Part shown: in pieces, positions 38,241 to 62,730 of the stretch | Numbering within the stretch: the stretch's first letter is position 1 | Layout of the letters: each line of letters opens with the position of its first letter | Source of the DNA: Branchiostoma floridae | Taxonomy: Eukaryota; Chordata; Leptocardii; Amphioxiformes; Branchiostomatidae | Length of the DNA: 64,000 nt | NCBI RefSeq assembly: GCF_000003815.2 | Contig: NC_049987.1 | Coordinates: 13,205,434 to 13,269,433 of the forward strand | Direction of reading: 5' to 3' | Program-made: the position numbers and the translations under genes | The notes under the pieces: generated by a model | Databases searched by the model: none | What the model was told of the DNA's origin: nothing | Seen by the model: the letters and a program-made list of their open reading frames with translations, nothing else

Positions 38241-39260
38241 GACACTAGATCACCATGAAGGATTAAATCAGCATTAACAAGATCTTGAAGGAGAGCAATA
38301 GAGAAGTTTTGGAAACACTTTGTCATTGCTATAAGATAAGATCCACACAAACATGCCAGTATTGATGCTTTCAATACATTCCTTTCCCCCAATATACTGG
38401 TCAGGTGTAAAATGTCTGAACACTGATCTCCCTAAATGTGGAAAGACGTTGAGAAGTTCCAAACAGCCTTGTATTTCAGATTGTACATGAATGGAACCAT
38501 TTGCTTTTGTTGTAGATCTCTGCTTAACATGAATATGCAATGAGCTTGATATGTTTATGTCCTTGTAGATATAGATCTTTTAACAGTAAGAATGTTACTA
38601 ATCCAGCCATTTTCTTGGTCGTTTTATAACAATATGTATTTTTATGATGTAATTTGTTGTAAACCCTGTAAGTTACGTTTACATGATGTCAGCAAATGTA
38701 GCTACTTTCAAAACCATAACGTTGTATTATTATTACACTAGAAGTCACAGTGTCTTCTATTCACCCAGTCATTAAATGTGGAGAAATAAAGCCATGTACT
38801 AACCCCAAGTTGTACTGGCTGTTTTCTGGATACCTGATCCTGAGCGGACTGGTTACTGGTTACTGGGACTGGTTAATAAGCTGGACTGCACTACCATGGG
38901 ATTTTGGGATTTCGTGCAATTAACGTGCGATTATGCGTTGTTTAATTAGCTTGTGAAATTTAGATCATGCAAATTAGGACCTCCATGAGGAAATGTCATC
39001 ATATGTTAGTGTGACGAGATGAGCATCCAATAATCGTCATCGACGTGGCCTCTATAAATCAGTAAACAAGAAGAGCCAGGTTCATCGGACGTCCCATTTC
39101 CACAGGATCTGGCGGAGGTTTGTGTTCTGTGCACCCTTGTTTTGTCCTCGACTTAATTTTGATCTGTAACCGCTGACAGTGCTGTTTCAACGACAGTGCT
39201 AGCGGGACCACCGTGTTCTCTCTCAGTCTGTTTTCTTGCTCCGCATATTTTGGTACAAAC
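38241..39260 (+). other. 3' flank of copy 4 and upstream region of the ZP gene
   Basis: Noncoding; collinear with 4464-5590. It must hold the ZP-gene promoter and 5' UTR, but no core element is clear. Confidence 0.5.
38785..38790 (+). terminator. Polyadenylation signal, copy 4
   Basis: AATAAA in the conserved GAGAAATAAAGCCAT block. Confidence 0.55.
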
Positions 39261-42200
39261 ATGGCATTTATTATGCTGCAGGCGACGTCTCTGGTGATCT
39301 TGAGCCTCACATTGTGTGCCGTGTGTGGTAAGAATGGCCTTATTGTACAGTATTACTAGTACTGAATCTGTCACTGTGGAATATTGCGAAGGCTCGCATG
39401 TGGGCTGATTTGTTTGTAAATGGAAACTTCTGTTGGGTGCGTCAGATTTGCACGATTCTCATCAATTTTTTTTTCATATCTCATGTATGTCTGACTCATG
39501 TTGTTTATGAAACAACGGACTGACCTCTGCATTTCACATGAGTATTCTTCCCATGCCCCGTGTGTAGGGCTGCAAGGCCAAGGGGTAACTGGGTTCAAGG
39601 CTGGTCAAGGAAGCTTTCTCTGCCTTCACGAAAGAGTATAATTGAAAGTTTCTACTTAACCAGTGGCATTCGTGTATGTAGATTAATCAATTTCAACTCC
39701 TTTGTAGATATGTGTAGTCGTAGTAGACCTCCAGACCTCCCTGTACTTTTGTTGTGACTCTACTGAAGATTGTTGTTGTAAGCCATCACGAAATCACCGA
39801 AAGGGGAAGCCTCATGCATGGTACCACGTCTGGTACGCCTCCGTACATTTCAGCAAGGGTGCGCGGTCAATGACATTAGGTGGCAAGGACAGAGCAACAT
39901 TGATACCTTTAGGGTCCTTTAGTGCACCGACCTAAGCGAGTCATATGGGAGACATCAGCTTGGCCATCTGGATCCAATTCCATGGATATGTGGATCTGAC
40001 TTAAGACTTCGTTCCCAGGGATGGCTCAGCTCGGGCATGTTGTAAGGGATATGCCAGTGTCTTTCAGAAGGGACGTAAAACGGGGCGTCCCGGCCTAAAA
40101 TGGAACCAACCGTTCCTATCTGGCATGACGAACTCTATGAGTTCTCTATGACATGACGTCAGTGGCACAGCATAGCTCAGTGCGACAGCGGGGGCAAAAG
40201 TTTCCTCTCTTCCTCTTAGATGTTTGTGTGGACCCCGTAAACCTTTCAGCACATGGCTGATTCAAATTCCATTCACCCAACAAGGACAGACCGTAAAGAC
40301 AGACCCAGGAGGAACGGTTGGGAGAAACAGAGAGTTTCAGGAGAAAGTATTGGTTGGAAAAAACTGACCAAGTAGAGAAATGTTTAAGATTTGAGCAGGT
40401 TCCGTCATTGTAGTTTTCATTGCAGCTGCAGCTGACACTGATGATGATGTAATCTGTTCGTCATCTGTATCTGTATCTAAATATATATTATATAACCGGT
40501 ATCACCACCCTTTGGCGTAATTACACACCAGCAGCTTGTTATATTAGACTTGACGACAAGTCACCTAACCTATGCATCTGTTTTAATCCTTGCACAAACG
40601 TTACGGAACAGTTGAGGAAGATGATTTTTACCTAAAATCCGGGGGTATTGTGACCTCCATGGAATATGAAAAGTTTTTGGCATGCATGTGTGTGTGTTTG
40701 CGGATTATAACTATATTACAATGATATTTTATATGTGGGTAGGTCTTTGGAAGATGAAGCTCAATTTAAGTTTGGGCCCCCTTGTGTGTGACCTTGATAC
40801 TGCAGCAAAATAGGACTTAATCTGTGTATGATTAACGAGAAAAATCCATAATTATAATTTCTCTTTTATATGACACGTGACATGTGATTCATGGTAGGAG
40901 GAACATTTATAGATCTCATAATAGATTATGTAAATATGGAAATCATTTGAATACCTAATCATGGTATACGAGGTATCCGAAGTCTTGTTTTTATTGATAT
41001 TTCCTCTCATTTATAGAACGGGAGGCGTCATATCTTTCCCAGTTTGCAGGATGGCATTACTACAAAGTACCCGTCACGGGAGAAATGACATCGACCAACG
41101 TGAAGGACACCTGTGAGGCAGCGGGGTACGTGACACCGTGTCCCGGGGACAGCGACTGTCCTCATTCCTCGTCCTCGTGCGTCGACACAGGCTTAGATAA
41201 CTGTAGTGGACCGATGGATGACGTAGCCCGGGTCCTGTGTGGTAATAGCTCTCGCCCAGATACCTGTGACCAGCTGGACGGTGTGTACCAGTTCATGATC
41301 AACTGGAGGTCAGACGACGGCGCTTGTGGTGTGGAGTCAGGAAGTTGGTGCACCAGTGGCTCTGGGCGACAAGACAGATACGCCTTCTGCGCAAGAGGTG
41401 TTTTCTTGTGGTTTTTAGATCTTTTTACATGTATGTTTTTACATTGTAAATGTTTGGTGGAGGGATAGTTACTGTGACCGTTACATGATGTCCATCGTTT
41501 CCTGGTGGGTGGCAGCAGGGTAATGCTCTTAGGTGGGTAGGACAGATTCTCCATTAGTATTTTTTGTGTGGTGAGAATCTAAGGTCAGTTGATGATGTTC
41601 GCTATTGCCAGTTTCACCATGCCACCACCTTTCAAACCACAAGGTCAATTTGTTAATTGACCCACACATTCGGTACATATAGATAAATAATACGCTTATG
41701 GTACAAGACGCAAGGGCGCACATTGGTTTCAAATGCCTTTTCTTTGTTGTTTGTTTTTCCGTTGTAGACAGGAATGTTACAATTGCTGCACACATCGATG
41801 TAACCACAACCGTCACACCAAGAAAAGAGCCAAGTAAGTTAACAGTAATTGCAGGTCTCTGTAGTAATTGAAACTAAACATAATCAAACGTTAATTATGT
41901 AATCCAGGTAAATTTGCATGACTGATAAGAAAATTCTAGAATAGCTTTCTTTGTTAAGATAGTGCCAACCCATCAATTCAGCATACGTTGTTGTCAGGAA
42001 ACAAGACAAAACATAGACTACTTAAAGTTTTTTTTATTGAACAAATGGTCAATCTGTGGCAGCTAGTTAACCTATCAATTGACACGACGTTAAAATGTTC
42101 ATTTAATTTAGAAAGTCATTTTCTTTTCAGAACGAGAGTCGTCCTTTCTGGCTCTTTATAAGGGTTGGCGCTACTACAAAGTACCTGTAACCGGAGAGAT

Positions 42201-45200
42201 GACATCGTCCAACGTGAAGGCTACCTGTGAGGCAGCGGGGTACGTGGCGCCGTGTCCAGGAGACAGCGAGTGTCGGTATTCCTCGTCCTCGTGTGTCGCC
42301 ACAGGCTTGAAGGACTGTGGGTTGCCGATGAATGACGTATCCCAAGTCCTGTGTGGTACTACACCAGACGACTGTGCTCAGTTTGACGGTGTGTACCAGT
42401 TCACGGACAACTGGGAATCTGAGGATGACGCTTGTGGTGTGGAGTCGGGAGGTTGGTGCAAGGTTGGCACTGGGACAGAAGACCGTTATGCCTTCTGTGC
42501 CACAGGTATTTTGACATGTGTTTATGACAACTGCTCTATGTATATGTTTGCTACAGTGATTTCTCATTTCCCTTGGTAGTGCTCTGAGTTGGACAGGACA
42601 GGTTTTGTTTCCACAATTGTTTGTTAGGGAGTGTTCCATCGTCAGTGGCTGACATTCACTATTTTCAACTACATCAAAAGAAGTCTTCGGATCCTCTAAA
42701 AATGTAAACTGGCCCCCAAATCCACTGGAAAGCATGAAATTCTGATTGATCTGGGATACTATTGGGCGACACGTGGCCACATTCTTTGGAGACTAGAGCA
42801 GGCGAAAATCAATGCGTGCGTGGGTGGCATCCATAAAATTAAGTCAGTGTGGCCCAATAGAAAATAATCTATGAACAAACTGAAGTCAAGAGTCATGCTG
42901 TCTATTTTCAACACGTGTCATTTGTGCTGTGTACTGTTCAATTAGCCTGCCATTTTCTTTTTTACTCCTCACAAAGCTCTCCCCAAGTGCGTGTCGAAAT
43001 TGTTTACATTGATTACAAATTCTTTGCTGTTTGTTGCTCTGTACACAGACCGGAATGTCACAACCATTGGCACTGCACCTCATAATGCAACCACAAGAGC
43101 ACCTGATACAACTGGCGCACATGGTAAAGCAGAGTCGAGTAAGTAACCTTCAATTTAAGCTAAACTCGCATTGCTGGCAACAGAAAATCTATTTCTAAAA
43201 GAAGTACTCTATGTAACACATGATTGACGATGGCTTGCTGCGATTCTCTCTTAAGCTTCGTAAACCATGGCCTCTTGAATAAGATGACAAGACGCGTATG
43301 CTGTCGCCAGGAAACATGGCAACCTGTTCTATGTAATATAAGCAGCTGCTGTCGCGCCGAGTGCCTGCAAAGCTGGTGTGTCACGCTGATGTGCGGTTCT
43401 ACCGGTTATATACGCACAGATGGCAAAACCTAAGAGTAAAATTTTAACTGAAGGACAATCTTTGCACCGTCGTCACGGAAGTGTTACAGTAGCTTGCTTT
43501 GGCAGCTGGCAACGGAAGAAGATAACACTCAAGTGTCATGTGGTGAACATCCAAATTATTTTCATTGATATCTTTCCTTTATAGAACTAGCGGTGTCATT
43601 TTTGGCTCTTTATAATGGATGGCACTACTACAAAGTACCCGTCACCGGTGCAATGACATCGGCCAACGTGAAAGCTACCTGTGAGGCAGCGGGGTACGTG
43701 ACGCCGTGTCCCGGGGACAGCGAGTGTCGGTATTCCTCGTCCTCGTGCGTTGTCACAGGTCTGGAGGACTGTATAAGGCCGATGAATGATATATCAAAGG
43801 TCCTGTGTGAATCAGAATCGACACCGCATACTTGTGCTCAGCTTGACGGTGTGTACCAGTTCATGAACAACTGGAAATCCGATGATGACGCTTGTGGCGC
43901 AGAGTCAGGAAGATGGTGCATTGAAGGCTCTGAGCGACAAGACCGATACGCCTTCTGTGCAGAAGGTATTTTTGAAATGTGTTTAGTTAGGACAACTGCT
44001 CTACGTAAATGTTTGTTGCAGTGATTTCCCATTGGTTTCCCTTGTTGGTGGGTAGTGCTCTGAGTTGGACAGGACAGGTTTTGTTTTCTACCATGGTTTC
44101 TGGGGGAGTGTTCCAGGGTCAGTGGCTGACGTTCACTAAGAAGCCTCCGGACCCTATAAAATGTAAACTGACACCTAATTGGCCAATGACACTCCTTCTC
44201 CTCTCAATAGAAAATCACCCATTAACGAACAGATCTAGAAGTCAAGAGTTATGCTGTCTATTTTTAATCGCGTAGTATGTACTGTGTACTGGTCAAACTC
44301 TTCTATTTTCTTTCTACTCCACACAAAGCACCTCCCCCCGTGCGTGTCAATGTTCTTTTACATCACAAATACGTTTCTTTGCTGTTTGTTGCTATGTACA
44401 CAGACCGGAATGTTACAACGATTGGTGTTGCCACTCATGATACAACCACAGCAGCCCCTGCGTCAACTATCGCCCATGAGTCGAGTAAGTGACCGAAATC
44501 CAGTTCTAAAAGAATTACTCTATGCTACATAGGAATATTCTGCTATGTTTGCAGTGACAATGAATTTGTTTTCTTTTTATATATTAAGATATTAATAATA
44601 TCGATGTATGGCCAATGAACAAATTCAATACGTCAATATGCAATAATTATAAAGGACAAGGCTACCTGCTATTCTGTGTTTGTAAACCATGGCCTCTTGA
44701 ATAGGATGAGAAGACGCGTCAACTCAGCATATGTTGTCGCCAGGAAACATGGCAACTCGTTCAGTTAATATCAACAACTCCTGCCGCGCCGCATGCCTAT
44801 GAAGCTGGTGTGCCACGCCGATGTGCGGTTATACCGGCTCTATAGATACAGATGGCAAAACCTAAGAGTAAAATTTGAACTGAAGGACAATGCTAGCCTT
44901 GTACCAACGTCACGGAACTGTTACAGTATCTTGCTTTGGCAGCTGGCAACGGAAGAAGATAACTCTCAAGTGTCATGTGGTTAACATCCAAATTGTTTTT
45001 ATTAATATCTTATTTCCTTTATAGAACGAAAGGTGTCATATCTGGCCCTTTACAAGGGATGGCACTACTACAAAGTACCCGTAACCGGAGAAATGACATC
45101 GTCCAACGTGAAGGCTACCTGTGAGGCAGCGGGGTACGTGGCACCGTGTCCCGGGGACAGCGAGTGTCGGTATTCCTCGTCCTCGTGTGTCGCCACAGGC

Positions 45201-48200
45201 TTGAAGGACTGTGGGTTGCCTATGAATGACGTATCCCAAGTCCTGTGTGGGAATAAACCAAACGACTGTGCTCAGTTTGACGGTGTGTACCAGTTCATGG
45301 ACAACTGGGAATCTGAGGATGACGCTTGTGGTGTGGAGTCGGGAAGTTGGTGCGAGGTTGGCGCTGGGAAAGAAGACCGTTATGCCTTCTGTGCCAAAGG
45401 TATTTTGGAAAGTTATGATTGATACTCTTTGCTATGTTTGCAGTAGTGCTAATTTACAGCGACCGTTTCTGGATGTCCGTGGGCTTGCAAGTCAAGTGGC
45501 TGGAGTTATACTCCGAGATGGGTAGGAATCGTTTTATTTATCAAGATTTAAAGTAGCTTCTGTGGAGTTGCTCGGGGCCAGGTTCACCATTTCCAACTAC
45601 ACCGTCCGTCTTTGAAACCACAAAACCCCTGAAAGTGTCCATTTTCAATTCCTTACGACCTGTTTCCTTTTTAATGCTACAAAGCTTTTACGAGCCTCAA
45701 TCAACTAATGATACTTTTCCCAATTGAGGATCATCCATGATAAAGTAAAAGTTCATTCTGTGTTTTACACGACTCGTGTACTATTCTATTGTTGTATACC
45801 GACCAAGGTCTTATTTTCCTCATTTTCTTTTCATCATTTACAAAAGTATCCTGTAGCATATAGCAAAATGGTAAGCATTAATTGCACTTATCTATTATTT
45901 GTTGTTTATTTGTTGTTCTGTCATAGATGTTGCAACCGATGTAGCAACAACACCACCACATGATACAACCGTCGGACACGATGAAGCGCCAAGTAAGTAA
46001 CCATCAATTTTAAGTTAAATACATATGCATTGAAGGCCACAAAATTCCTATTCATGATAGAGGTATACAACGTAATACATGAGTATTGTTATTTGTTCAA
46101 GGGGTGGGGGATATTTTCCTTTTCAGTATTCTTTTTAATAGAAAGATATAATGATAGTTTTACTTCCAATCCGCTCGGCCTGGTGTCCTTAAAAAATGTT
46201 TACTGTTATCAGTAAGGGTTAAGAAATAATAAAATGCAAATCGAATATACATTACACCACACCCGTCATATGCTCGTTCAACATGTGTTGCGACTGAAGA
46301 AAAGGCGTGGCCGAACTAATGATATTCCCTGAACGAAACGCTTTGTCGTTTGGTAGGTAACTGCTGTGGTAACATACTGCGGCAGGCGACGGAAGTGGTT
46401 GATCAGTTCAGCAACTACCAGGTTCCAGACGGGTGGACCATGTGCTACATCGACGGGCGCGACACCGCGTACTACAGAATCCCTTGTCGGGACCTCATCC
46501 AGGGCATTCCCGGGTACGAGAATGCCGATCAACTGCTCGCAGGCGGAGGAAACTTCGGGTGCTGGCACGGGAACACCGGTGACACTCCTGGACCGGCGTT
46601 CGCAAAGAACAACGTGATCAAGAACAGCTGTAGGGATGGCGTCCAGCAGAACACCCTGCTGTCCTCGTGGAGCAAAGTGCAAACAACAACACTTGGAGTA
46701 TGTATCAAGGGAATTACTTGTGGTAAGTACGGCATAGATAAGCCGGAAGGCACCTGCAACGTGGCATTAACTGCAGAGCTGTTGTTGCGTATGTGAATAC
46801 ATCTTAAATGATTGTATATACTTTCTTGCTTCATACAGACCAACGAATGAAAGCACCTGAGCCGTCAAAGGATATATCGGGTATGTTACTTCTTTTTTTT
46901 TGGGGGGGGGGGGGGGGGTGTCAAAATGTATTGCAAGTGCATTTCCCTGGTCGGAATGTTCTTTATTCCTTGAGTAAAAAGAATACATTTCATTTCGTTC
47001 AGGACTACGAGTATTACTCTGTATTTTGACAGGGCATTCCTTTCCATAGTGGGGGTGTCAAAACACCATTGAAAGTATCCCCATTTCAAACTAGTACAGT
47101 AACCCCCAGATAAATCTTACAGCTGCTAACTGGTTAACCCTCATAAACTAAACTGAACAGTATATGTCAATTTCCCACTGCAGCTTCTGTTAAATGCACC
47201 AATGACTACATGGAACTGTCCATTCCTGTGGATGAACTGACCGACATCACCCTGAACGACCTTCACTGGGAGCCTGATCAGAACTGTGGTGCCACAACTA
47301 ACGGTACTCACTACCTTTTCCGTACAGGTCTGCACGAATGTGGGACTCAGGTACGTCTAGTTAGGGTAGTCCCCAAGTAGATGTGTCATTTGGCTCCTTT
47401 TTTCTGTCTTTCAGTACGTGTTGTTCTTTCAACCGATAACCTCATCGCACGTGTGATTGTAAGCAGCCTACAAAAGATATGGCATAGATTGGGAAAAAAT
47501 GGTACTTGTACTCGCAGTCTTTTTCTGGGCTATTTGTAACTTTCTGTTAATCCTGCTCTCCCCCGCTGAAGCATAAGACGAAATGTCTCCAGCCATTCCC
47601 ATCTTGGGCCATTCATCTAATCTCGTGCCAAGTCTTTTGTATTTTTTTTCATCTCTCCTTCGCATGTCCTTCTGCACGTCTCTAAATGCTTTCCTGCATT
47701 ACGTATCTCTTGAGGATTCCATTCGAGGGCAACACATGTATATCTGTTTTTAATCATACGTAGAATGTGCCCTAGTCAGGAGTTTTATTTCCTACACGAT
47801 GTTAGGGCTACGTGCACGTCTGTTGACTTTCTAGTTCGAGTTCTTTGCTCCCACTTTGAATTCTCCGTATTCAAAGCCCATGAGATGGCTCTCTATCCAT
47901 TTCTAACTGCAACCTCTTTTCTTCTTTTCATCATTTATTTATTGTCTACGCACATTTTTGTCATCTTTTTTTCAACATGCCATCAGGTGACTTTTGACCC
48001 CAAGTACGTCATCTTCAGGAACAACATCAACATCATCGGTACTCCTACGACAAACAGTGTCATCGCCCGGGACGGAGATATCAGGATTACTTCAAAGTAT
48101 TAGATAATTCTGATTTACAGGGCAAGCTTTACAGCTATAGCCTTGTATTTGTTTGCTTTTGCACAGCTGTTCTTGCATTTGCATTCTTATTCCTCCATGT

Positions 48201-51200
48201 AATAAAGAATCCCGAGTCTCCATAATTGTGGTTTACTTGTGAAATTCATGTTGAATAGAATGGTGCAAAGCTATACATATATTGAGTCTGTAATTTGATT
48301 CACTCAGTGTTGTGGTAAACAGTATAATAAAAAAGTCTACTCGTCCAGACTATTTTACATATGGTATTATAACTGCCCTCTGGCTACTAAGATGTGTTTG
48401 AAATAAAACATCATGAACCGCGTATCATTACCATGTAGATATCAATATAGTAATGTGGAAATTAGTATAGTGATGGTAACACACTCGTATATGAAGACAG
48501 AAAATTATTCATTTTCTCATTTACCAGATGCAAGTACGAGCGTCAGCAATGGGTGGACTCCACCTTCTTACCCATCCCTGGAGGCCACGGACTGAACATT
48601 ACTGAAGAGGGGTTCGGGCAGCTTGAGGTCCGGCTCTCCATGTTCCCCACAAGTCAGTACCAGAGTCAGTACCGGGCCAACCAGTTCCCCATCCACATCA
48701 AACTGCGTCAGCGCGTCTACATGCAGCTAGAGGCTCAGGGTCACGGCAAGAAAGTATCTGTGCTGGCGCTGAACTGTAAGGCAACCATGTCACCTGAACC
48801 TAACGACACCCTGCAGTATCAACTCATCAACGACGGGTAGGCATGACACGACAGAAAGTACAGCGACTTTAAACTCTAACTAAAAATCTCTACTAATTCA
48901 ACAACATAGGATAATAATAAAAACTCCATACAATCGGAGGTGGGGCTAAACATGAGTTTCACAATTTTTCTAATCACAAATCAATCTTTTATGTATTTAC
49001 CTATCTTAGCATTAGAAGGGCTGTCGGATCTAAAGATATTGTCAAATCTACTTCTGGTACCGAGTATCGTAAAATCTGTAGAGTTTAGACATAGGAATGC
49101 GAATGACTTATTGTGCAACATTTCATACATAGGACACTCCATGACGAAATGAAATTCATTTCCAATTGAGACGTACAGCATAGTAAATACTCATGTCTTA
49201 TTCTTTGGTCTGAAAGGCAACTTGAGAAAGATTTAACCTAGGATTTAACTTGTTTTCTCCAGTTGTGCTTCTGACCCAACCCTGGATATCTTCAGTATCG
49301 ACGACCCCGGTAAGGAACGCTTTGGTTTTGAGGCGTTCCGCTTCATCCAGGAGGTGAAGACGGTGTACGTGCACTGTGAGGTGATGGTCTGTAACGCCGC
49401 TGATCCTGGGTCTCGCTGTGCAAAGGTTTGTTTTATAGTTAGTACTGTATACTGTGCAGATTCCTACCTTGAGGAACATGCCCAAACGTTTATCATCACA
49501 GATACGTTTTGTGTGGTCATTCTGGATAAAGTTCATATGTTGTTGTTTCGATATGACGTGACAAACATACTCTCCACATTGTATTTTCAGGGTTGTGTTT
49601 CGAGACGCAAAAGGACCGCAGGCGAGAAAATCGACATGATCGGTCGTCACGTGATCCGCATGGGGCCAATCATTGTAGACGATAGCGAAGCAGGTACACA
49701 TTCATTTGCATTTTATTAAGTCTGCTTTTCAAATACCATTGGCGTTTTTACCCTTAAGCAAGTATACGTAATAGACCTACACACCGACAGATAGCCAACA
49801 AGGGAAATCATATTATTTTGTGTGCTCGTGATTTTGTTTTTAGCTAGCTCTCGGGGCAGTGAGGAGGTTGTTTAAGTTTCGTCTTAAAGCTGCTTTTGGA
49901 AGTTTGTTTTGAAAGAAAGCTCAAAAGGTTTCAGGGATCGTAATAACATTTAATATGAAGATAGGTAGATGCAAAGAAATCAGGACTCATTTGCATAATT
50001 CACAAGAAAATGCTAGAATATGTATAAATGTCATACTTTGAACAAATGCTGTTATTTGTGTTGATCAACTGATCCGATTTACCTAAAGGGGGCATCATTT
50101 GCATAAGCTACGAGAAAGATTCATAATACGTCAGTAGTAAATGTGTTAAACATTATTTGGTGGTAGTCGTGGAACTCTGTTGTTGTTACCGTTATTGTCG
50201 GTTCAGGATTGCACATAGAGTTGGTCCAAGTTCAGAGTATATATTTTTTTCCATTTTATTGAGAATCAACTAGCAGTATACAATGGTAGTCGCATGTCCA
50301 CTGAATTGTGCTGATTTATCACAAAAATCAACTATGCATTCTGGTAGACTCCGAGTTACGATAACAAAAACACATACTGGTATCAATTAACTCACGAGAA
50401 CGATATGTCCATTCGCCATTTGACTCATTATCAAGGAGTTTACTTAGTAGATTACTCATCTCAAAAATATATAGCGAAGTACATTCGAGAGTACAGCATC
50501 TTGTCTGAAGGTGCACCTTGTGAATAATTTAGTGGTACTAATTAATTACCTAATTCATTAGGCTGTTTCCGGTGATCGGTAAACTACTGATAGAACATTA
50601 GTATACTTGTTAAGTCGTTGTTACACTTGACCTTTTTACAAAGTTTTATGGCACTGTACTATTCTAAAATATAAAACTACAATAAAAGAGATCCCGAACT
50701 TACTTTTCCCCAATGTTTTGCCTATAATATTGTACAAAATTAGTACCTGGAATTTTCCCATGGTTCAAACGTTTCTATGCATTTTTATGCCATGTACACT
50801 TGTATTTGGTATTCAGAGTGTTTTAGGCGTAGCTAAGGATACATGTAACTTGAGAAAGTTTACTTTTTATATAATCCAACCAAATTTAAACCTCTTGCAT
50901 TTTGTGAACTACGTTTGGGTCTTCAGTATTTGGCCTTAGGAATAGGTTGTCCCATATCTACATCATCAGTCTTAAGCTTATAATGATGGTATGTATGGTC
51001 ATGTGGAAGGTGTTTGAAATGCAAATACTGAACGCAAAAAGTCATAACTACATCCTTTAACTTCTTTTCAGTCACCACAACACAGAAGGTTATCATGCCT
51101 GTATACTGACTACAGGCGTTCTTCACGTGGGTTATGATGTGAGCCTTACATAAAGCCTCGTCCTTACAGTGTATGTCTATGTGATACACCCTGCCCCGGG

Positions 51201-54200
51201 GAGTCATGTAACTCCCGCCGAAACTAAGACTCTTGGCGGCCGGTACATTCGAGTCGACAAGGATGTAGCAGCCCGCTTCTACTAACTTCTTCATGTTGGG
51301 TTCAGAAAGTTTGTACGGGTCCCAGTCAACAAGCAACAAGCCTCCAGAAAGCACGGTAGCCGAGAAGGCCGGCGGAAGCAGGCGGTGGATGTCTGCAGGT
51401 CGGTAGGGTACGAGGGCCGGGAGGCACATCTGGGCGTCTGTCAGCCGGTCCTTCCTGGGGGTTGCGTCCCAGCAAAAGTACATGACATTCTAAAGAGACA
51501 AAGTAGAAATTGCTGACGTAATACTCGAGATGAATGTGATTTCAGATTAGGCCAGTCATGTTTCTATCTTTTCAGTGTGGTATTGTGTTAAGCACTGACC
51601 GGGTGGTATAACAGTGTAAGGTTGTGCAATACACTGACTGGGATATTACATTGTGGGATTGTGCTATACACTGACTGGGGTATTACAGTAGTCACGGGAT
51701 TGTGCTATACACTGATTATGCTAAACATGCCATACAATACTTACAATAACATATTTGGTCCTGTAGGGCGCATCGCGCCACTCTAGTCCCAGAAGCACAG
51801 TAGTCACTGAGTGGGATATAACAGAGTGGAATTCTGCTAAACAGCTTTATAGGCCATACAAATCACTTACAATTACAGATTTGGTCTTGAAGGGCAGGTC
51901 GTACGCGTTGTCCAGACGTTTGAGGTCTTGTCGCTCTGTGTCTCTCAGTACATGCACTACTTTGGGATGTCGCCCCGACATTTCTAGAAACTTTGCCAAG
52001 TGACGAACTCTCATGGCAGCTATAAACGTTCTTGAAAATCTCCTGCCTTGCATTTTCTTCGCCATGCGCATGGTTTTAGCAACCCAGCTTTCTCCGCCAT
52101 CCCGCAAAAAGTGCACATCGAGGAAGACCTATTAAAGGGAAAAATAACTAGAAAGGCCGACATTTGCTTGGGAGCAAATACAGCATATTGCAATCCATCT
52201 TCATACGTATGTCAAAATGTACTGTTCCATATCAACCTTTTGCAGGAGTTGACCTGTCCTAAAACATCATCCCGCTCCAAACTTTATTTTACCCCCCCAT
52301 ACAAGAATGGACTCTTCCAGAACACCCCTATCTATGCAAAATGGACTGGTCTATGTGGCCCATTTTCCATTAATAGTGCTAAAGCTACCCCAATACCAAA
52401 TTCCAGATCAGTTGGCTTTTTCATGACACAGGAAGCAAAAATATACATTTTTGATCAAAAATGGCAAAAAAATCCCAAATTTAAGAATTTTCAATAGGTG
52501 TGAATTGAACCCTGTGCCCACATACCGTACGCACCTTCATACCAAATCTACGACCATTTGGTTTTCATACATAGGCACAGGAGCCAAAACTTAACATTTT
52601 TAGTCTATAAAAGACAAAAATCCCAAAATTCAACAGTTTAAAGTAATGAATGCCCAAAGTGAAAATGAAGTACTGTGGGCACTTGCCAGTCACACCTTCA
52701 TGCCGAAATTCAGGTGATTAGGTTTCCATACAAGGTTGTAGGAGCCAATTATACACATTTTTAGTCAGAAATGGCCAAAACCCCCAAAATAACTCATTTT
52801 TAAAGTGACCTATGAAGAAAGTGTTGATAGAGGTCTGTGCTCATATGTCCAATGCACCTATGTACTAGCCTCTACCAGGCTTCGTGGTACAGTGTGGTTT
52901 GGAGAATGTCCCTACTCGGCCGGCTGACTCCCCTAGCGTACTGTATTTACTCTATTTGACCAATTTCTACAATTAGACCACCAAACCACGAAGCCAGGTA
53001 GAGGCTACCTATGTACCGAATTTTCAGGTTATTAGGTTGTAATACCAGGGCACAGGGGCCCAAAATATATATATTTGGTCTAAAAATGACCAAAAACCCT
53101 AAATATTATAATTTCTAAGGCCTCTATCAAAAAAGTGGATAAAGAGCCCCGGGGTATTTGCTATCTTTACCTTCATGCCAAATTTCTGGTCAAAGTTCAG
53201 GTCATTTGGCCCCAAAATGAAAAAAAGTTGAATGCATTTGAAAGTTTGGCAGGAGAAGAAGAAGAGGGGGAGACCGAGCAAAAAACAATATACATGTATT
53301 GCAAATCCATACTGTAGTATGGATTGCAATATAAGAATAGTTATATAGAATGTTCCGTTCGGTATCAAAACCTATGTGTAATGATTCACAACACCATACT
53401 GTCCAGGTTTTTTTTCTATTTGGTCTTGGACAATGAAAATGTGGCACTGCACTCAAATTTGTAACTTATACTAACAGTGCTCGCCAGTTTGTTGACAGGC
53501 TTCGCAATAAGGTATTAGTAAGACATTTCAATCTAAGTTCACGTTATAATTTTGTAGGTTGTTATTTCAGTCTTTGCTTGCAGTTCGTCCTGTCAACATT
53601 CGTGTCAACTTTCTGAAAAAAGTTTTTATCTTTGCCACCCCCTCCCCCCCAATGTTACTTATGCACATTTTACCACTTCCCCATCGAGCTCCACCAGGAG
53701 AAACACCGTATCGGGATCGTCCACAAAACCGTGAAACTTGGCCGGCAGGTAGTCAAACCCGTCCCGAAAGGTGTCAGGAGACGCCATGGTCATAACGGCC
53801 TGGTAGTCGTCGTGAGTCGCCTCTCTCACAGTCATCCGGGATAACAGGTCTTCGTCCTAAAACAGAAGCAGGATAGCTTCAGAACTACTGATCTAGAGTT
53901 CCGCGACCCCGTACTTATTACATATATCACAATGTATCAACTCCATATCTCATGACGTTAGAATTCGATCTTAGTTACATATATTAAAAAATGGGAAGTT
54001 CTCAGAATTTACCGCAAATGTGTTATTAATGTCTATCATCAATGATACAAATGGGATTGTTATTCACATGACTTATAGTGAGTAATGATATAAAGGAACG
54101 ATCCCCTTCTGTTTCAATAGTTTGCCAAGGGTTCAAGGATTCGGAATTTGACCTGGGGTGTCCTTGCCTGTTTGTACGGCAATTTTTGAATTAACGACAG

Positions 54201-57200
54201 TGGTTCAAATAACTGACACAGGCCCATAAAGATTTCAACAGCCCAATTAGTCAATGCTATACTTTATGAGAAGGGCATTTGTCACTATTGTACTAGTACG
54301 TGGTTGAAGACACTGTTATTTACTGAGAGGAGAGGTGACCTTGGCGCAAGCTGATTAGGAAATGACGTACCCTGCAGCTGGTTGAAAGGTGGCGTGTTTG
54401 GATAGTTAGGTTCATTACGTCCTTTCACGGCCTACTGGAAGGATTTGTTAAAACAGCCAGCTAGTGCATGAAAAGCAAAAGGTCCAGATGTTGAGAACTT
54501 ACCATTGCTCACGGAACAGATCAAAATCGTGCACAACGAGTGACCTCAAGCTGCAGGGGCGGCACGTTTATATAGTGGTGGCGTCAATACGTGTTTCAAG
54601 TTCAAAGGTTGTTTCCGGTTCCCTTAATGGTCTTACACTGAGTTGGAAGGGCTGCTAGGAGCGCGATTCATACATAGGTCATATTTCCAAACCGGTCCCG
54701 GCTGGGATGTTTTTGGAAACGAAATATGAAAATGTCGATCACTGATCATACAGAAATTCTCGTGACTACTTTTATTACGTTCTGTGCGTTTCGTTATCTC
54801 TCTTTAATAGATTGCATACATGCACATTGGGCAGCAAGTTTCTATTTCGTATTTACCTTAACCGACAAGTTTATGTTTTCTGTGCCGTTTCTGTGTCTGT
54901 GAACATTATAGCTCGAGACGATGTAGAGGGATATCATTCTACATTTGTATTTTGGTATTTTGTATGCTTGTGATGTTGTTTAGTATTAAATAGCTCTTCG
55001 GGCAAAGAGGAAGCTGTTTGAGTTTTGTCCTATAGCTGCTTTTTTGTATTAAAACTAAAAGGAACCGAGTTCAAAAAGGTTTGACGGATCGTTGTTTTTT
55101 AAATATGAAGATAGACAGGTTAAGTGATACTTGACATCATAAATAATGCTTGAAATATCAAAATTTTATAACGACGCTAAGGCCCATGCTAAGACATGTT
55201 GCATTCAAACGTGTAACATATGTTCTGAGTAAGACAGAAGAGGAGCATCAACGCGTATAAATAAAGTTAAAGAAGACCTTATGTGCATAATCAATATAGG
55301 AGAAAGCAGAATAGTTCCATAGTGGTAAATAATGGGTATTTCGTAATTCCGGCCTTTAAAAGTTAAGTGAAGTTAGTTGAACGATAAATGCAAATAAGGG
55401 AAATCAAGATCTGATTTTCATAATTTACATGGAAATGCTAGCAAAAATACTAGCTTTAAACTTTTGTTGTAAATGTAAAACTTTCTCACTTTTAACATAT
55501 TCTGTTATTTCGGGTTGATCAACTGATCTAATTTCTATAAAGGAGGACACATTTGCATAAGCTACAAGAAGGATTCATAATACATCAGTCGTAAATGTTT
55601 TTCAACATGTAGTGGTTGTCGCGGAACTCTCTTGTTGTTGCTGTTGTTGTTGTTGTCGGTTCAGGATTGTACATTTTTAATCCCTGCTAATTACACCAGA
55701 AACGATACTTGACCGGCTGGAGTTCGTCAGAGGTCAGAGTTTATCAATGAGAATTTCAAATATGTTTCGTGGTACATTCGAGAGTACAGCATCTTGTCTC
55801 AAAGGCGCACCTCAGGCCTTAAGGCTGTTGCTTGTGATCCACAGAACGGTTAACTACTGACATGGAGAACACTAGTGTACTTGTACAGTCATAGCCACAC
55901 TTGACCTTTTTAGAAAGTTTTTAAGTATTGTGCTGTTCAGAAAATATAAAGCTACATTCAAAGACATCCCGAAATTACTTTATTCCTGTGTTTTGCCTAC
56001 AATTGTAGTAATTACCTAGAATTTTGGATTATGTCCTCAGTATTTGGCCTTAGAAACAGGTTTTGCCATCCAGAAATTTTCAAAATCAAGCTCGTCATGA
56101 GTATAAGCATGGTCATGGGGAAGGTGTTTGAAATGCAGATACTGGACGCAAAAAGTCACCACTACATCCTTTAACTCCTTTTCAGTCACCATAACACAGA
56201 AGGTTATCATGCCTGTAAACAGACTACATGCGTTCTTCACGTGGTTTGTGATGTGAGCCTTACATAAAGCCTCGTCCTTACAGTGTATATCTATGTGATA
56301 CACCCTGCCCCGGGGAGTCATGTAACTCCCGCCGAAACTAAGACTCTTGGCGGCCGGTACATTCGAGTCGACAAGGATGTAGCAGCCCGCTTCTACTAAT
56401 TTCTTCATGTTGGGTTCAGAAAGTTTGTACGGGTCCCAGTCAACAAATACAGTGCTCTCAGAAAGTACGGCAGCCGAGAAGGCAGGCGGCAGCAGGCGAT
56501 GGATCTCATTGGGCTGGTAGGGTACGAGGGCCGGGAGAGACATCTGGGCGTCAGACAGCTGGTCCTTAATGGGTGTTGCGTCCCAGCAAAAATACATGAT
56601 ATTCTAAAAAGACAAAGTGAAAATTGCTGATGTCGATATTCCAGATGGAATGTGATTTAAGAATAGGCCATTCATCGAAATAAAAAACAAATAAGCAATC
56701 AAACAAACACTGTCTATATATCGGGACGGGCTCTGAAATCGTGATCACTCCGGATATGCTACTCGGAAAGTTTCAAACCGATGCCCCTTCGGATACTACG
56801 GGTCGCCCCGCAGGATACTGCGGTCTTTTTCTTTACTTTCGGAAGGGACCAGCGATCGATTCTATCAATGTTTTCGAGATTAGATTATGGTTAAAATCGG
56901 GCATTTTTGTCGCTGGGGTTGGAGCTGATTTTAAGTTCAAATCAAAAATCTACTGGGGCCCACTCTAGCCTCAGAAGCACAGTAGTCACTGAGTGGGGTA
57001 TAGCAGAGTAGAATTCTGCTAAACAGCTTTATAGGCCATACAATTCACTTACAATTACAGATTTGGTCTTGAAGGGCAGGTCGTTGTCTAGACGTTTGAG
57101 GTCGTGTCGCTCTGTGTCTCTCAGTACATGTAGTGTTTTGGGTGGTCTCCCTGATATTTCAATAAATTTTGCAACAGAACGAATTCTCGTGGCTGATGTG

Positions 57201-60200
57201 AATGTTTTTGAAAATCCCCTGCCTTGCAATGTTTTGGCCATGCGCATGGTTCTAGGAGCAAAGCTTTCTCCGCCATCCCGCAAAACCTGCACATCGAGGA
57301 AGACCTATTAAAGGGGAACATAAAAATAATTGGATGGAATGTTCCGTTCCGTATTCGGTATGTTTACTGATTCATAACACCATATTCTTCAGTTTGTTGG
57401 CAGACTTTGCAATAAGATTTTACCAAGACATTTCAATCTGTCATTTTTACGTCATAATTTTCTAGGTTGTTAGCTCAAGCAGCCTTTGCTTCCACTTCTT
57501 CTTGTCAACGTTCGTTTCAATTTTCGTAAAAACGTTTTTATGAGGATTGTATCTATTAGTGAGAAAATGTGATAGCACCCGTCTATCCCATTACTTCACT
57601 AGTCAGAGAAAATAATGATAGCGCCCCTCTATAACGTTATTACACTAGCCTATCAAAACACAGTCCAAATTTGTGTCTAATAGAGAAAAAAATGTCATAG
57701 GATCCCTCTGTCACTAGTATATAGACAATTATGGAAACAACCGTTCAAAAACACAACTTTCCCCACAATTTCCCACGCTTTCTATCTTAAATTACTATTC
57801 ATGGCTTAATAAATGTGTTAAATAATCAGGTCTGTCTTATCACCCCCCCCACAAATGTTACTTATGCATATTTTACCACTTCCCCATCGAGCTCCACCAG
57901 GAGAAACACGGTATCGGGATCGTCCACAAAACCGTGAAACTTGGCCGGCAGGTAGTCAAAACCGTCCCGAAAGGTGTCCAGAGACGCCATGGTCATAACG
58001 GCCTGGTAGTCTTCGTGAGTCGCCTCTCTCACAGTCATCCGGGATAACAGGTCTTCGTCCTAAAACAGAAGCAAGACAGCTTCAGAACTAGATCTAGACT
58101 TCTTTACTTACCACATGCTTCTACGACCCCATACTTATTACATATATTACATTGTATCAAATCCATATCTAATGACGCTAGAATTCGATCTTAGTTACAT
58201 ATATTACAAATAGGAAGTTCTCATAATTTACCGCAAATGTGTCTATTATCAATGATACAAATGGGATTGTTATTCACATGACTTATAGTGAGTAATGATA
58301 TAAAGAAACGATCCCCTTCTGTTTCAATAGTTTTGCAAGGCCAAGGGTTCGGAATTTGACCTGGGGTGTCCTTGCCCGTTTACACGGAAATTTTTGACTT
58401 AACGACAGTGGTTCAAATAACCTTAACAGACCCATAAAGATTTCAACAGCCCAACTAGTCAATGCTATACTTTATGAGAAGGGCATTTGTCACTATTGTA
58501 CTAGTACGTGGGTCGAAGACGCTGTTGTTTACTGAGAGGAGAGGTGACCTCAGCGCCAGCTGATTTGGAAATGACGTACCCCTGGTTGAAAAGTGGCGTG
58601 TTTGGATAGTTAGGTTCATTACGTCCTTTCACGGCCTACTGCAAGGATTTGTTAAAACAGCCAGCTAGTGCGTGAAAAGCAAAAGTTCCAGATGTTGAGA
58701 ACTTACCATTGCTGACGGAACACATCAAAATCGTGCACGACGAGTGACCTCAAGTTGTAGGGGCGGTATGTTTATATAGCTGAGGTGTGTTGCAAGTTCA
58801 AAGGTTGTTTCCGGTTCCCTTAATAGCCTTGCACTGAGCTGGAAGGGCCGCTACGAGCGCGATTTATGCATAGGTCATATTTCCAAGCCGGTCCCGGCTG
58901 GGATGTTTTTGGAAACGAAATGTAAAACTGGATCACGGAACATACAGAACGTATTCTCGTGACTACTTTTATTACGTTCTGTACGTTTCGTTATCCCTCT
59001 TAGATTGTATCTGCACAGTAGCAAGTTTGTATCTGGTATTTACCTTTACCGACATCTTTTCTGTGCCGTTTCTGTGTCTGTGAACATTATAGCTCGAGAC
59101 GATGTAGAGGGATATCAAACTATTTTGGGATTTTGTATGCTCGTGATGTTGTTTAGTGTTAGATAGCTCTTGGGCAGAGAGGAAGTTGTTTGGGTTTCGA
59201 AGTAAATAAAGACCTAATGTACATATAATCAATATAAGAGAAAGCAGTATAATACCATAGTGGTAAGTATAGAATACGACACGGTGTATTTCGTATCACC
59301 CGAGGTACCAGTCAGACCGCGGGTAGGATCGCCCGTTTCCACGCATCTTTATATCATATACACATGTATGTGTATTCATAGTGTTTCAGTGGGCGTATCT
59401 AAGGATACATGCAACTCGACAAATTCTACAGTCGCCGGCCTAAGTTTACTCTTAGTATAATCCAACCAAATTTAAACCTCTTGCAATTTGTGCACTACGT
59501 TTGTAAACGGTAATGTCCTCAGTATTTTGCCTTAGGAGCAGGTTCTGCCATCTCTAAATCATCAGTGTCAATGTCGTAATGAATGTATTCATGGTCATGG
59601 GGAAGGTGTTTGAAATGCAGATACTGGACGCAAAAAGTCATCACTACGTCCTTTAACATCTTGTCAATCAACACAACACAGAAGGTTATCATGCCTGTAT
59701 ACCGGCTTAAGGCGTTCTTCATGTGGGTTATGATGTGAGCCTTACATAAAGCCTCGTCCTCACAGTGTCTATGTGATACACCCTGCCCCGGGGAGTCATG
59801 TAACTCCCGCCGAAACTAAGACTATTGGCGGCCGGTTCGGTTGAGTCGACAAGGATGTAGCATCCCGCTTCTACTAGCTTCTTCATGTTGGGTTCAGAAA
59901 GTTTGTACGGATCCCAGTCTACAAGCACGGTACCCTCAGACAGTATGGCAGCCGAGAAGGCCGGCGGCAGCAGGCATTGTATGTCGGAAGGCTGGTAGGG
60001 TACGAGGGCCGGGAGGGACGTCTGGTTGTCAGTCAGCCCGTCCTTCATGGGGGTTGCGTCCCAGCAAAAGTACATGATATTCTAGAGAGACAAAGTAGAA
60101 ATTGCGGAAGTCAATTCTCTAAATGGAATGTGATTTCAGATTGGGCTATTCAGGTTTCTATCTTATCGGTTTCTTGGGACGGTCACCGAAATAAAAACCA

Positions 60201-62532
60201 GACGGTCAACGAAATAAGAAACAAACAAACAAACAAACCCCTGCTTGGCTGTGAAATCGTGGCCACCACGGATTCTACAGTCATGCTACTCGGAAAGGTT
60301 TAAAACCGACGCCCCGCCTGGTCCTCGGGGTTCCCCCGCCGGATATTATGTTTGTTTTTTATTGCTTTCCGACGGGACCAGGGATCGATCCTATCAAAGT
60401 TATCAAGATTCTATTACGGTTGAAACCGTATTTTTTCCCCCTAGGATTGGAGCTGGTTTTAAGTCCGCATCAAAATCAACCGGGGCACATTGGAGCCCCA
60501 GAAGCACAGTAGTCACTGACTGGGGTATAACTGTGTAGGATTGTGGTAAAAAGCTAGGCCATACAATACTTACAATCACAGATTTGGTCCTAAGGGGCAG
60601 GTCGCTGTCTAGCCGCTTGAGGTCGTGTCGCTCCGTGTCTCTCAGTACATGTAGTTTTTTTGGTTGTTGCCCCGACATTTCAATAAACTTTGCAAAATGA
60701 CGAACTCGCATGGCTGCCCTGAATGTTTTTGCAAATCTCCTGCCTAGCATTTTTGGGGACATACGTATTGTTTTAGCAACACAGCTTTCTCCTTCATCCC
60801 GCAAAAACTGCACATCGAGGAAGACCTATTAATGGGGGAAAATAAAAAAAAGTTGGATAGAATGTTCCCTTCGGTATCAAAGCCTATGCCTAATGATTCA
60901 TAACACCATACTCGTCAGTTTGTTGGCAGGCATTGAAATAAGGTATGAGTAAGACATCTCAATCTAATTTCACGTGATAATTTTCTACGTTGGTAGTTCA
61001 TACAGCCTTTTCTTTTTCTTTTTCCTGTTAACATTCATTTCAACTTTCCGAAAAACTTTTTACATCTTTCGCACCCGGTACCCCCCCCCCCCCCACACAC
61101 ACACAAATATGACTTGTGCACATTTTACCACTTCCCCATCGAGCTCCACCAGGAGAAACACCGTATCGGGATCGTCCACAAAACCGTGAAACTTGGCCAG
61201 CAGGTAGTCAAACCCGTCCCGAAAGGTGTCCGGAGACGCCATGTTCATAACGGCCTGGTAGTCGTCGTGAGTCGCCTCTCTCACCGTCATCCGGGAGAGC
61301 AGGTCTTCGTCCTAAAACAGAAGAAAGACAGCTTCAGAACTAAAATTTAAAGCCAACGATCCCATACCTATTACACATAGTACATTGTATCAATTACATA
61401 TCTAATGACGCTAGAATTCGATCTTAGTTACATATGTTACAAATATGAAGTTTCCATAATATACCACAATGATGTTATTAATGTCTATCATCAATGAATG
61501 ATACAATGATACAAATGGGGTTCTTATTTATATGATTGATAGGTGAGTACTGAAATGAATAAACGAGCTCGAGTCCCTTCTGTTTCAATAGTTTGCAAAA
61601 GGTTCAGAGATTCGGACTCTGACCCGAGAAGATCCGATGCCTGTTTGTATGACACTTTTGACTTATTAGTGACAGTGGTCAAATAACCGACACTGACCCC
61701 TTCAACAGCCCAAGACACGACTGGACATACTTTATGAGCAGGGCATGTGCATTTGTCGCTATTGTAAATGGACCAAAGGCACTGCTGTTTACTGAGAGGA
61801 GAGGTCACGTTACAGTAACTCCATTTATAATGACGTACCCCCGGTTTAAATATGGTTAGGTAAGTTCATTACGTCATTTCAGGTCCTACTGCAAGGACGT
61901 CTTGCTCTACAGCTATCTGATACGGGAAAAGCAAAAGGTCCAGATGATAAGAACTTACCATTGCTAACGGAGCAGATCAAAATTGTGTGCACGAGTGGCC
62001 ACAAGCTGTAGGGGCGATATGTTTATATAGTGTAGCAGTTAATAAGTGTTTCAACTTTCAAGTTCAAAGGCAATATGTGGTTCTATAGTTCAAAGGTTGT
62101 TAAGCTCGCGTTACGCAATCTCTGGTTTGCCTGTACTGTGTTGGGAGGACCGCTAGTGTCTGAATACAGAAATTCTCATGACTGATTTATTATGTTTTGT
62201 GTGTTTTGTTGTCTCTCAGATTGTTCTTGTCGTTCCCGAAAGCTGACGAAGTGAGCATTTTAAGTCTTATATTATGCAAATAAGGGAATTTACACATATA
62301 CTTATGATACTGCTTGGCGAAATTGGGGTCGTTAAAGTTCTCTTTATCTTTTTAAGCTGAAAGCAACCCGCGGGATCGCCGCAGTGCAGCCTGGTCCCTG
62401 CTGGCTGCCGGAGGAGGTCTGATGGCGCTCGCCCTTGTCGTGCTGGGCGCGGCCATCGTGCTGAAGCGGTCCCGCCGTGAGGAGTGGGCCTACCAGGGGC
62501 TGACTCACGTGGACGAGGAGGGGGAGGAGTAG
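39261..62532 (+). CDS. Multi-domain ZP transmembrane protein
   Basis: Seventeen exons: 39261-39327, 41017-41397, 41768-41833, 42131-42505, 43049-43138, 43585-43965, 44404-44484, 45025-45399, 45927-45992, 46357-46722, 46839-46880, 47184-47350, 47987-48096, 48528-48836, 49263-49425, 49591-49693 and 62357-62532; 1105 aa. Residues 1-22 are a signal peptide. Four repeats of about 125 aa (from 23, 172, 327 and 481) each have ten cysteines and the frame YYKVPVTG...TCEAAGYV...DGVYQF...DRYAFCA. They alternate with short Thr-rich linkers, three of which open with the glycosylation sequon DRNVT. An 8-Cys module spans 628-749. The ZP domain starts at about 764 (ZP-N DYMELSIPVD; ZP-C in exons 14-16), followed by an RRKR furin-type site at 1018-1021. 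A transmembrane helix lies at about 1057-1078, then a short tail ending DEEGEE. The ZP domain implies extracellular polymerisation; its partner and tissue are unknown. All domain and linker exons are phase 1-1. The last intron is 12.7 kb and hosts three antisense genes. Confidence 0.88.
42131..45399 (+). repeat. Tandem duplication of domain-plus-linker exon pairs in the ZP gene
   Basis: Domain exons start at 42131, 43585 and 45025, 1454 and 1440 bp apart. Introns match as well: GTAAACCATGGCCTCTTGAA recurs at 43258 and 44680, and GCCAGGAAACATGGCAAC recurs nearby. So the last two modules arose by recent unequal crossing-over, while the first module (41017) is more diverged and its flanks do not match. 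Confidence 0.8.
46891..46918 (+). repeat. Poly-T/poly-G tract
   Basis: About ten Ts followed by a run of roughly 18 Gs in the intron after the small linker exon. It has G-quadruplex potential, and its length may be unreliable in assembly. Confidence 0.8.
49694..50922 (+). other. Start of the last ZP-gene intron; left flank of the nested gene array
   Basis: Noncoding. Blocks such as GCTCGTGATTTTG plus AGCTAGCTCT (about 49825-49900), the GATCAACTGATC region and ACTTGACCTTTTTA-type segments recur at 54960-55950, and some again at 59140-59510. They are the ends of an approximately 5-kb unit that carries each nested gene. Confidence 0.65.
50923..54505 (-). CDS. GNAT-fold acetyltransferase-like protein, nested copy A
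   Basis: Four exons on the minus strand: 54505-54503 (ATG only), 53856-53674, 52128-51871 and 51489-50923; 336 aa, in frame. Exon 2 encodes the N-terminal GNAT segment (MTVREATHDDYQAVMTMA, then GFDYLPAKFHGFVDDPD and LLVELDGEV), which resembles NAT16 / histidine N-acetyltransferase. Exon 3 continues VFLDVHFLRDGGES. The position of the acetyl-CoA loop (usually Q/R-x-x-G-x-G/A) reads MQGRRFS, so cofactor binding is uncertain. Exon 4 encodes a 188-aa C-terminal region (MYFCWDATP, later DWDPYKLSEPNMKKLVEAG). A TATA box lies 62 bp upstream of the ATG. The gene lies wholly inside the ZP gene's last intron, on the opposite strand. Substrate unknown; the family call is from recognised sequence only. 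Confidence 0.85.
51580..51840 (+). repeat. Minisatellite in intron 3 of nested copy A
   Basis: Units of about 40-50 bp built on TGTGCTATACACTGACTGGG plus TATTACAGTGTGGGAT. A single-unit version (CACAGTAGTCACTGAGTGGG) remains in copies B and C, so the array expanded in copy A. Confidence 0.6.
52148..53335 (-). mobile_element. Helentron-like non-autonomous element (copy II) in intron 2 of nested copy A
   Basis: The reverse-strand counterpart of the element at 30354-31170, about 1.19 kb. On the minus strand its 3' end is ATTTGCTCCCAAGCAAAT, then GTCGGCCTTT and CTAG (52148-52151), identical to copy I except for one loop base. Its 5' end carries the hairpin ATTGCAATCCATAC...GTATGGATTTGCAAT at about 53297-53332. 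Internal units repeat the GGCTCCTGT... / AATTTGG motifs. Nested copies B (after 57305) and C (after 60827) show the empty site. A MITE is nested inside. Confidence 0.75.
52866..53007. mobile_element. 142-bp MITE nested in the Helentron-like element
   Basis: Terminal inverted repeats of 22 bp (TAGCCTCTACCNGGCTTCGT plus GG, one mismatch) with exact 9-bp CCTATGTAC duplications at 52857-52865 and 53008-53016. No coding capacity. A 9-bp duplication suggests a Mutator-like origin (inference). Confidence 0.8.
54567..54574 (-). promoter_or_regulatory. TATA box of nested copy A
   Basis: TATATAAA on the minus strand, 62 bp before the ATG-only exon. It is followed by a conserved GC-rich leader (GCCGCCCCTGCAGCTTGAGG). 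A DR1-like AGTTCAAAGGTTG (on the plus strand) lies about 25 bp upstream. The same layout is found in copies B and C. Confidence 0.75.
54600..56036 (+). other. Spacer between nested copies A and B
   Basis: Noncoding and a paralogue of 49800-50920. It includes a (TTG)n run near 55635 and shared AATTTACATGGAAATGCTAG-type blocks. No gene is seen. Confidence 0.6.
56037..58709 (-). CDS. GNAT-fold acetyltransferase-like protein, nested copy B
   Basis: Four exons: 58709-58707 (ATG only), 58059-57877, 57304-57053 and 56603-56037; 334 aa, in frame. Same architecture as copy A but two codons shorter in exon 3 (RLDNDLPF rather than RLDNAYDLPF). The loop corresponding to the acetyl-CoA site reads LQGRGFS here, closer to the Q-x-x-G-x-G pattern than in copy A. 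The C-terminus (about 20 residues, ...ENFWMAKPVSKAKY) differs most among the copies; otherwise exon 4 is strongly conserved. It has its own TATA box. Intron 3 shares an approximately 200-bp insertion with copy C, so B and C are the closer pair. Confidence 0.85.
56745..56970 (+). repeat. Intron insertion shared by nested copies B and C
   Basis: The block GCTACTCGGAAAGTTTCAAA through GGAGCTGATTTTAAGT matches 60284-60490 in copy C and is absent from copy A. It is probably an old transposable-element fragment of unknown class. Confidence 0.6.
58771..58778 (-). promoter_or_regulatory. TATA box of nested copy B
   Basis: TATATAAA on the minus strand, 62 bp before the ATG, with the same GC-rich leader and upstream AGTTCAAAGGTTG. 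Confidence 0.75.
59519..61961 (-). pseudogene. GNAT-like nested copy C, frameshifted
   Basis: Exons correspond to those of copy B: 61961-61959 (ATG), 61311-61129, 60825-60574 and 60081-59519. Exon 4 has a 4-base deletion at about 59767. After VYHID the frame shifts and stops at 59728-59730, giving 263 aa instead of about 334 and losing the last third of the C-terminal region, although those codons remain intact downstream (to 59519). Splice sites, the ATG-only exon and the TATA box are all kept. Exon 2 also has a Leu in place of a conserved Pro (FDYLLAKF). It is either a young pseudogene, an allele, or an assembly error. Confidence 0.8.
62022..62029 (-). promoter_or_regulatory. TATA box of nested copy C
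   Basis: TATATAAA on the minus strand, 61 bp before the ATG. The upstream AGTTCAAAGG motif occurs twice here (about 62060 and 62089). Confidence 0.7.
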
Positions 62533-62730
62533 AGCGGGACTACAGACTAGCGGGGCTGACTTACGTGGGCTAGGAGGGGGAGGAGTAGAGCGGGACTACA
62601 GGCTAGCGGGGCTGACTTGCGTGGAGGGGGAGGAGTAGGGAGGGACTAGAGGCTAGCGAGGCTGACTCACGTGGAGGAGGAGGGGAAGAGTAGAGCAAGA
62701 CAACATAACAGGCTAGCGAGGCTGACGTCA
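62496..62730 (+). repeat. Minisatellite that includes the ZP-gene stop codon
   Basis: Four units of 50-60 bp starting at 62496, 62552, 62608 and 62658, plus a partial unit at 62718. They are built on GGGGCTGACTCACGTGGA, then GAGGGGGAGGAGTAG and ACTACAGGCTAGC. The first unit encodes the protein's last 11 residues and stop; the rest are 3' UTR. Confidence 0.9.

Follow-up and report, generated by a model that had tools for sequence, protein, structure and literature searches.

Three tandem antisense NAT16/HisAT-like genes, one of them frameshifted, lie within the last intron of a predicted ZP gene of Branchiostoma floridae

The window, meaning the whole 64-kb stretch of Branchiostoma floridae DNA that was analysed, corresponds to C9:13205434-13269433 in a genome of 513,431,437 bp and 431 contigs. 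Its plus strand holds a ZP gene, referred to below as the host, which we modelled from 39261 to 62532 as 17 exons in frame that encode 1105 amino acids without an internal stop, with GT-AG borders at 16 of the 16 introns. Exon 1 (39261..39327) comprises an open frame with a signal peptide and a GT donor in phase 1. Exons 2 to 11 (41017..46880), also modelled on GT-AG borders, encode four cysteine-rich repeats of about 115 residues with linkers, followed by a domain of about 120 residues; no Pfam match above the curated cut-off was obtained for these domains, the other Pfam matches being sub-threshold. Exons 12 to 15 (47184-47350, 47987-48096, 48528-48836 and 49263-49425) encode ZP-N (PF23344, E 2.8e-14) and ZP-C (PF00100, E 1.6e-29), as defined by Pfam and the exon models. 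Exon 16 (49591..49693) carries an RRKR furin-type site and a hydrophobic patch, and ends at a phase-1 donor at 49694. Exon 17 (62357..62532) encodes AGGGLMALALVVLGAAIVL, which comprises the transmembrane (TM) segment, a short tail and the stop. All the features of a membrane precursor are present in the host, namely signal peptide, RRKR, hydrophobic patch and TM segment, the last as a hydropathy peak and the signal peptide and patch as judged by eye rather than by a dedicated program.

The first exon of the host, together with its flanks (about 39105-40024), is duplicated with 84% identity at 5432-6351, some 34 kb upstream, and this copy ends beside an assembly gap (6354-6609). The region before the ZP gene, from 2123 to 38240, contains several BTB/kelch-like gene copies, recognized by visual inspection of their open reading frames. 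At 62496-62696, 3.7 copies of a 56-bp tandem repeat begin in the last codons of the TM exon and extend into the 3' region.

The last intron of the host (49694..62356, plus strand) is 12,663 bp long, or 7 to 109 times the length of introns 1 to 15 (116-1689 bp). Its predicted junction, with a donor at 49694 and an acceptor ending at 62356, is in phase 1 and joins GCA-G to CT-GAA. On both strands of the window, 15 of 1291 AG sites followed by a phase-1 open frame of 40-199 residues have a TM-like score; on the plus strand between 49694 and 64000 the only such acceptors are 62357 and 62390, which read in one common frame.

We performed a genome search with the C-terminal part of the ZP protein as query, which returned at least 120 matches, with 118 of 222 candidates scored. 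Among the matches listed, eight extend to the TM exon, the window's own and seven others, all on C9. In each of the seven, the exon-16 homologue carries a basic motif and is followed by a phase-1 GT-AG intron and a homologous TM exon, whose product is 74-89% identical to that of the host over the matched stretch. Two of the seven, at 13.290 and 13.299 Mb, belong to the cluster in which the window itself lies. Their last introns (L061 to L067) measure 159, 180, 356, 326, 336, 1249 and 281 bp, respectively, although in L064 and L065 use of a second open acceptor would make a difference of 18 or 27 bp. The host intron is 10 to 80 times as long, and an insert-like gene array was observed in the last intron of the host only, one of the eight ZP genes examined. 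This comparison is of eight genes and leaves out those with a ZP domain but without a TM-exon match (e.g. C9:13.281 Mb, C145, C216, C2, C3, C5 and C16). The seven paralogues provide good homology evidence for the predicted 49693/62357 junction and for a later insertion. The sequence-only reading had placed 62357-62532 as the final ZP exon by its splice phases, and the 17-exon frame and the phase-1 TM exon of all seven paralogues agree with that placement. It had also named a different last exon, or a separate owner of 62357-62532, as the outcome that would overturn it; the paralogue TM exons and the AG-site scan lend no support to either.

Synonymous divergence of the TM exon is uneven. Between the host and its two nearest paralogues (L061 and L062), dS is 0.05-0.07 in the TM exon and 0.28-0.75 in exons 14 to 16, exon 14 being taken from L050 and L055 for this comparison. 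Against the five other paralogues, it is 0.14-0.21 in the matched core and 0.27-0.37 over the whole TM exon, the latter not below the dS of exon 15 (0.28-0.42). All TM-exon values are rough because the exon is short and GC-rich (0.66-0.71). For the low values against L061 and L062, either DNA-level constraint or exchange among adjacent TM exons could be the cause. In tests for purifying selection, the TM exon gave p<0.05 in none of the seven host-paralogue comparisons and in none of the three paralogue controls.

Three genes, c1 to c3, are predicted on the minus strand of the last intron. Their coding sequences (50923-61961) are entirely contained in that one intron, the borders of which are backed by the seven paralogues. 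Each gene comprises four exons separated by phase-0 introns, and the first coding exon is the ATG alone. Gene c1 (50923..54505; exons 54503-54505, 53674-53856, 51871-52128 and 50923-51489) is intact and encodes 336 residues. Gene c2 (56037..58709; exons 58707-58709, 57877-58059, 57053-57304 and 56037-56603) is likewise intact, with 334 residues. Gene c3 (59728..61961; exons 61959-61961, 61129-61311, 60574-60825 and 59728-60081) encodes 263 residues; in the alignment, it is frameshifted by a 4-bp deletion in exon 4, and it lacks the last part of its Hisat_C domain. The homologous remainder persists out of frame beyond the deletion, at about 59522-59767. Since this sequence still resembles c1 and c2, the lesion looks recent, unless it is a variant or an assembly error. 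Three complete genes had been claimed from the sequence; there are indeed three, of which two are intact. A TATA motif had been noted for each, and we found one upstream of every ATG, at 54567..54575 for c1 and 58771..58779 for c2 (both at 62 bp) and at 62022..62030 for c3 (at 61 bp), all on the minus strand. Minus-strand AATAAA signals downstream of c1 (50255), c2 (55979) and c3 (58968) are candidate 3' ends. Intron 2 measures 572 bp in c2 and 303 bp in c3, against 1,545 bp in c1 (52129-53673), where parts of it align with the opposite strand at 30480-31172 and probably belong to a dispersed repeat.

The copies have diverged under purifying selection, with dN/dS of 0.48 for c1-c2 (p 3e-4), 0.34 for c1-c3 (p 4e-6) and 0.42 for c2-c3 (p 1e-4), where c3 is represented only by the part before its deletion. 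Pfam identified the Hisat_C domain in c1 (E 4.7e-33), in c2 (E 5.6e-33) and partially in c3 (E 5.7e-18, profile positions 2-87 of 124); the N-terminal GNAT domain gave no Pfam match in the nested proteins. A phmmer comparison aligned residues 14-304 of c1 with human NAT16 (PDB 9emo) over both GNAT domains, with an E value of 3.8e-17. We used the residue names of PMC12219266, with the numbering mapped to the 9emd chain through a constant offset of 23. By alignment, the positions of Trp246 and Tyr79 are conserved in the nested genes. In contrast to the human enzyme, the Tyr74 position is Arg in the nested genes, and the Gly134 position of the CoA site, still Gly in c2, is Arg in c1 and c3. The nested genes are clearly predicted, by similarity, to be members of a NAT16/HisAT-like double-GNAT family. 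The antisense tandem triplication of a GNAT-like gene inside the last ZP intron, as originally proposed, is supported by the gene models, the comparison with the paralogues, Hisat_C and the NAT16 match.

When the genome was searched with c1, 58 matches at exon level were obtained, spread over many contigs. The nearest relatives are contig C374 and a pair of genes at C9:14.82 Mb, on the contig of the window at a distance of 1.56 Mb. Contig C374 is unplaced (L042) and, being 96.9% identical to the C9:14.82 Mb array across 2,960 bp, looks like an alternative copy of it. The two C9:14.82 Mb genes have the exon structure and splice phases of the nested genes. Compared by eye, their ATG/GTAAG first exon, for which the second gene offers two candidates, is also preceded by a similar putative promoter block, in which TATACAAA or TCTACAAA takes the place of the TATATAAA of the nested genes. 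The introns and the similar promoter block of these non-nested copies speak for DNA-based copying. Retroposition was considered as a source of the array and was rejected because the non-nested copies contain the same introns. We also considered whether the copies at C9:14.82 Mb are surrounded by a comparable ZP host, and rejected this: with the host protein as query, tblastn gave no match at E 1e-3 in ten loci (L039-L048) around acetyltransferase-like copies, including 30 kb at C9:14.82 Mb.

In an exon-4 tree of ten rows, which omits more distant copies, c1 to c3 group together with a support of 80/88, and this is modest evidence that the trio may have a single origin. The best DNA matches of c1 exon 4 are nevertheless to C9:14.82B (90.7%, 567 bp) ahead of c2 (87.7%, 644 bp); the trio may therefore have arrived in several steps or have undergone gene conversion. 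In exon 2 of the nested genes (53674-53856, 57877-58059 and 61129-61311) and of the C9:14.82 Mb genes (922-1104 and 6080-6262 of L040), dS is 0-0.10, versus 0.15-0.30 for the whole genes, which suggests gene conversion or constraint.

Comparison of the last intron with itself revealed three repeated units, and the longer DNA matches between them are 77-88% identical. The inter-unit matches extend from 49814, where the first one starts, to 62217, where the last one ends. Outside the units, there remain 120 bp on the left (49694..49813) and 139 bp on the right (62218..62356), the latter perhaps holding some unmatched unit sequence. Without the repeated units, the intron would measure about 259 bp, which is within the range of the paralogues (159-1249 bp). 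With a remainder of this size in a 12,663-bp intron, it is most likely that the array was inserted into an intron that had been short. The intron ends gave no significant match to the paralogue introns, and the insertion point was therefore not located.

Taken together, we consider it very probable that a double-GNAT gene segment inserted antisense into a short last ZP intron and was tripled in tandem, that one copy was then frameshifted, and that the nested genes are passengers. This reading builds on the exon order and phases of the host, the comparison with seven paralogues, the gene structure in common with the C9:14.82 Mb copies, and the divergence and purifying selection among the nested copies. 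A DNA segment with a complete NAT16/HisAT-like gene, including its introns and promoter, would have entered the last intron of one member of the ZP family in antisense orientation, and the inserted gene would then have multiplied to three copies, one of which has since been frameshifted. We infer the direction of change to be insertion in the host, not loss in the seven others. Splicing presumably still joins 49693 to 62357, and the nested genes would be transcribed from their own putative promoters, with at most incidental transcriptional interference with the host. As for the host protein, it would be synthesized as a membrane precursor, from which furin-type cleavage at the exon-16 site would set it free. 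ZP precursors are described in PMC8789258 as being cut at a furin site during secretion, with loss of the TM propeptide. Since RRKR is encoded in exon 16, before the intron, and the basic motif is kept in the seven short-intron paralogues, release of the ectodomain is expected to occur by proteolysis whatever the intron does.

We obtained no positive evidence for the earlier suggestion that three opposing promoters could determine how much of the ZP protein is membrane-bound and how much is soluble. It is quite improbable that the array is a regulatory device, in which a firing nested promoter would obstruct host transcription in the last intron or terminate it too early, yielding a ZP protein without its TM anchor. 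The opposed TATA motifs are present, a transcript that reads on into the intron would gain a short tail with a stop (GTHSFAFY), and a plus-strand AATAAA is found at 50681; in human genes, moreover, nested genes can lead to exonization, retained introns and cryptic polyadenylation, according to the section of PMC3192792 on tandemly arranged pairs. However, the similar promoter block before the copies outside the ZP gene indicates that the promoters probably arrived with the genes and are unlikely to have evolved to serve the host. Release would already be provided by the furin-type site, which precedes the intron, so a nested-promoter mechanism is not needed for a soluble ZP protein. One nested copy, c3, is broken, and none of the seven paralogues examined carries such an insert in the corresponding intron. 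If the array nevertheless acted as a host switch, so that firing of the acetyltransferase-like genes terminated host transcription within the last intron and the ZP protein was secreted without its anchor, a passenger gene family would set the form of an extracellular matrix protein; we regard this as quite improbable.

Two other explanations bear on whether anything is nested at all. The host splice model is built from sequence, and the exceptional length of the last intron, relative both to the other host introns and to the paralogue last introns, is what might be expected if 62357-62532 were owned by another gene and the ZP gene ended elsewhere. The TM exon found after the exon-16 homologue in seven of seven paralogues, with its high protein identity, argues against a separate owner, as does the scan in which only 62357 and 62390 are TM-like; with the exon model, these led us to reject this candidate, which we hold to be extremely unlikely. 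An assembly artefact, with the array misjoined or copied into the intron, is very unlikely: alternative copies do occur in this assembly, as C374 illustrates, but the 49694-62356 interval is without any N, host exons flank it on both sides in the expected phase, and the longer inter-unit matches differ by 12-23%, hence are not one unit doubled by error.

The locus offers a natural comparison, with eight ZP genes of one genome that have a common last-intron position and a 12-kb antisense array in only one of them. The seven others are built-in controls for the effect of opposed nested transcription on splicing to a terminal exon. Among known ZP proteins, the host resembles the amphioxus egg-coat proteins BbZP1-5 in its C-terminal ZP module, and for BbZP1 both a furin site and a TM domain have been reported (PMC3543715). 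BbZP2-5 differ in having LDLa and vWFA domains, according to the same report, for which the window's host has no Pfam match.

The sequence-only reading knew of no described case of this pairing, which may hold for the exact pair but not for the kind. No description of a ZP/acetyltransferase nested pairing was found in the open-licence literature on amphioxus, ZP-domain, nested-gene and NAT16 topics. Intron-nested gene arrays are a known kind, with three antisense genes in one host and a set of paralogues in another described in PMC4394429, and the exact combination of ZP and acetyltransferase-like genes may be new. According to PMC4394429, about 1% of genes in humans and 10% in flies are nested, and two-thirds of these lie on the strand opposite to the host. 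The NF1 gene, with OMG, EVI2A and EVI2B, likewise holds three antisense nested genes in a host intron, but in that account they are not described as duplicates of one gene, and the host and nested families are others. MOB2 is similar in containing a set of paralogues within a host gene, KRTAP5-1 to -6, although these are part of a larger mixed set of 13 nested genes and the families again differ (PMC4394429). The LRRTM genes in the alpha-catenin genes are also protein-coding genes on the opposite strand of a host intron; there, one nested gene per host is reported in most jawed vertebrates (PMC3933685), whereas here three copies are found in one of the eight hosts examined. The present array thus adds a non-vertebrate chordate to the nested arrays of these papers.
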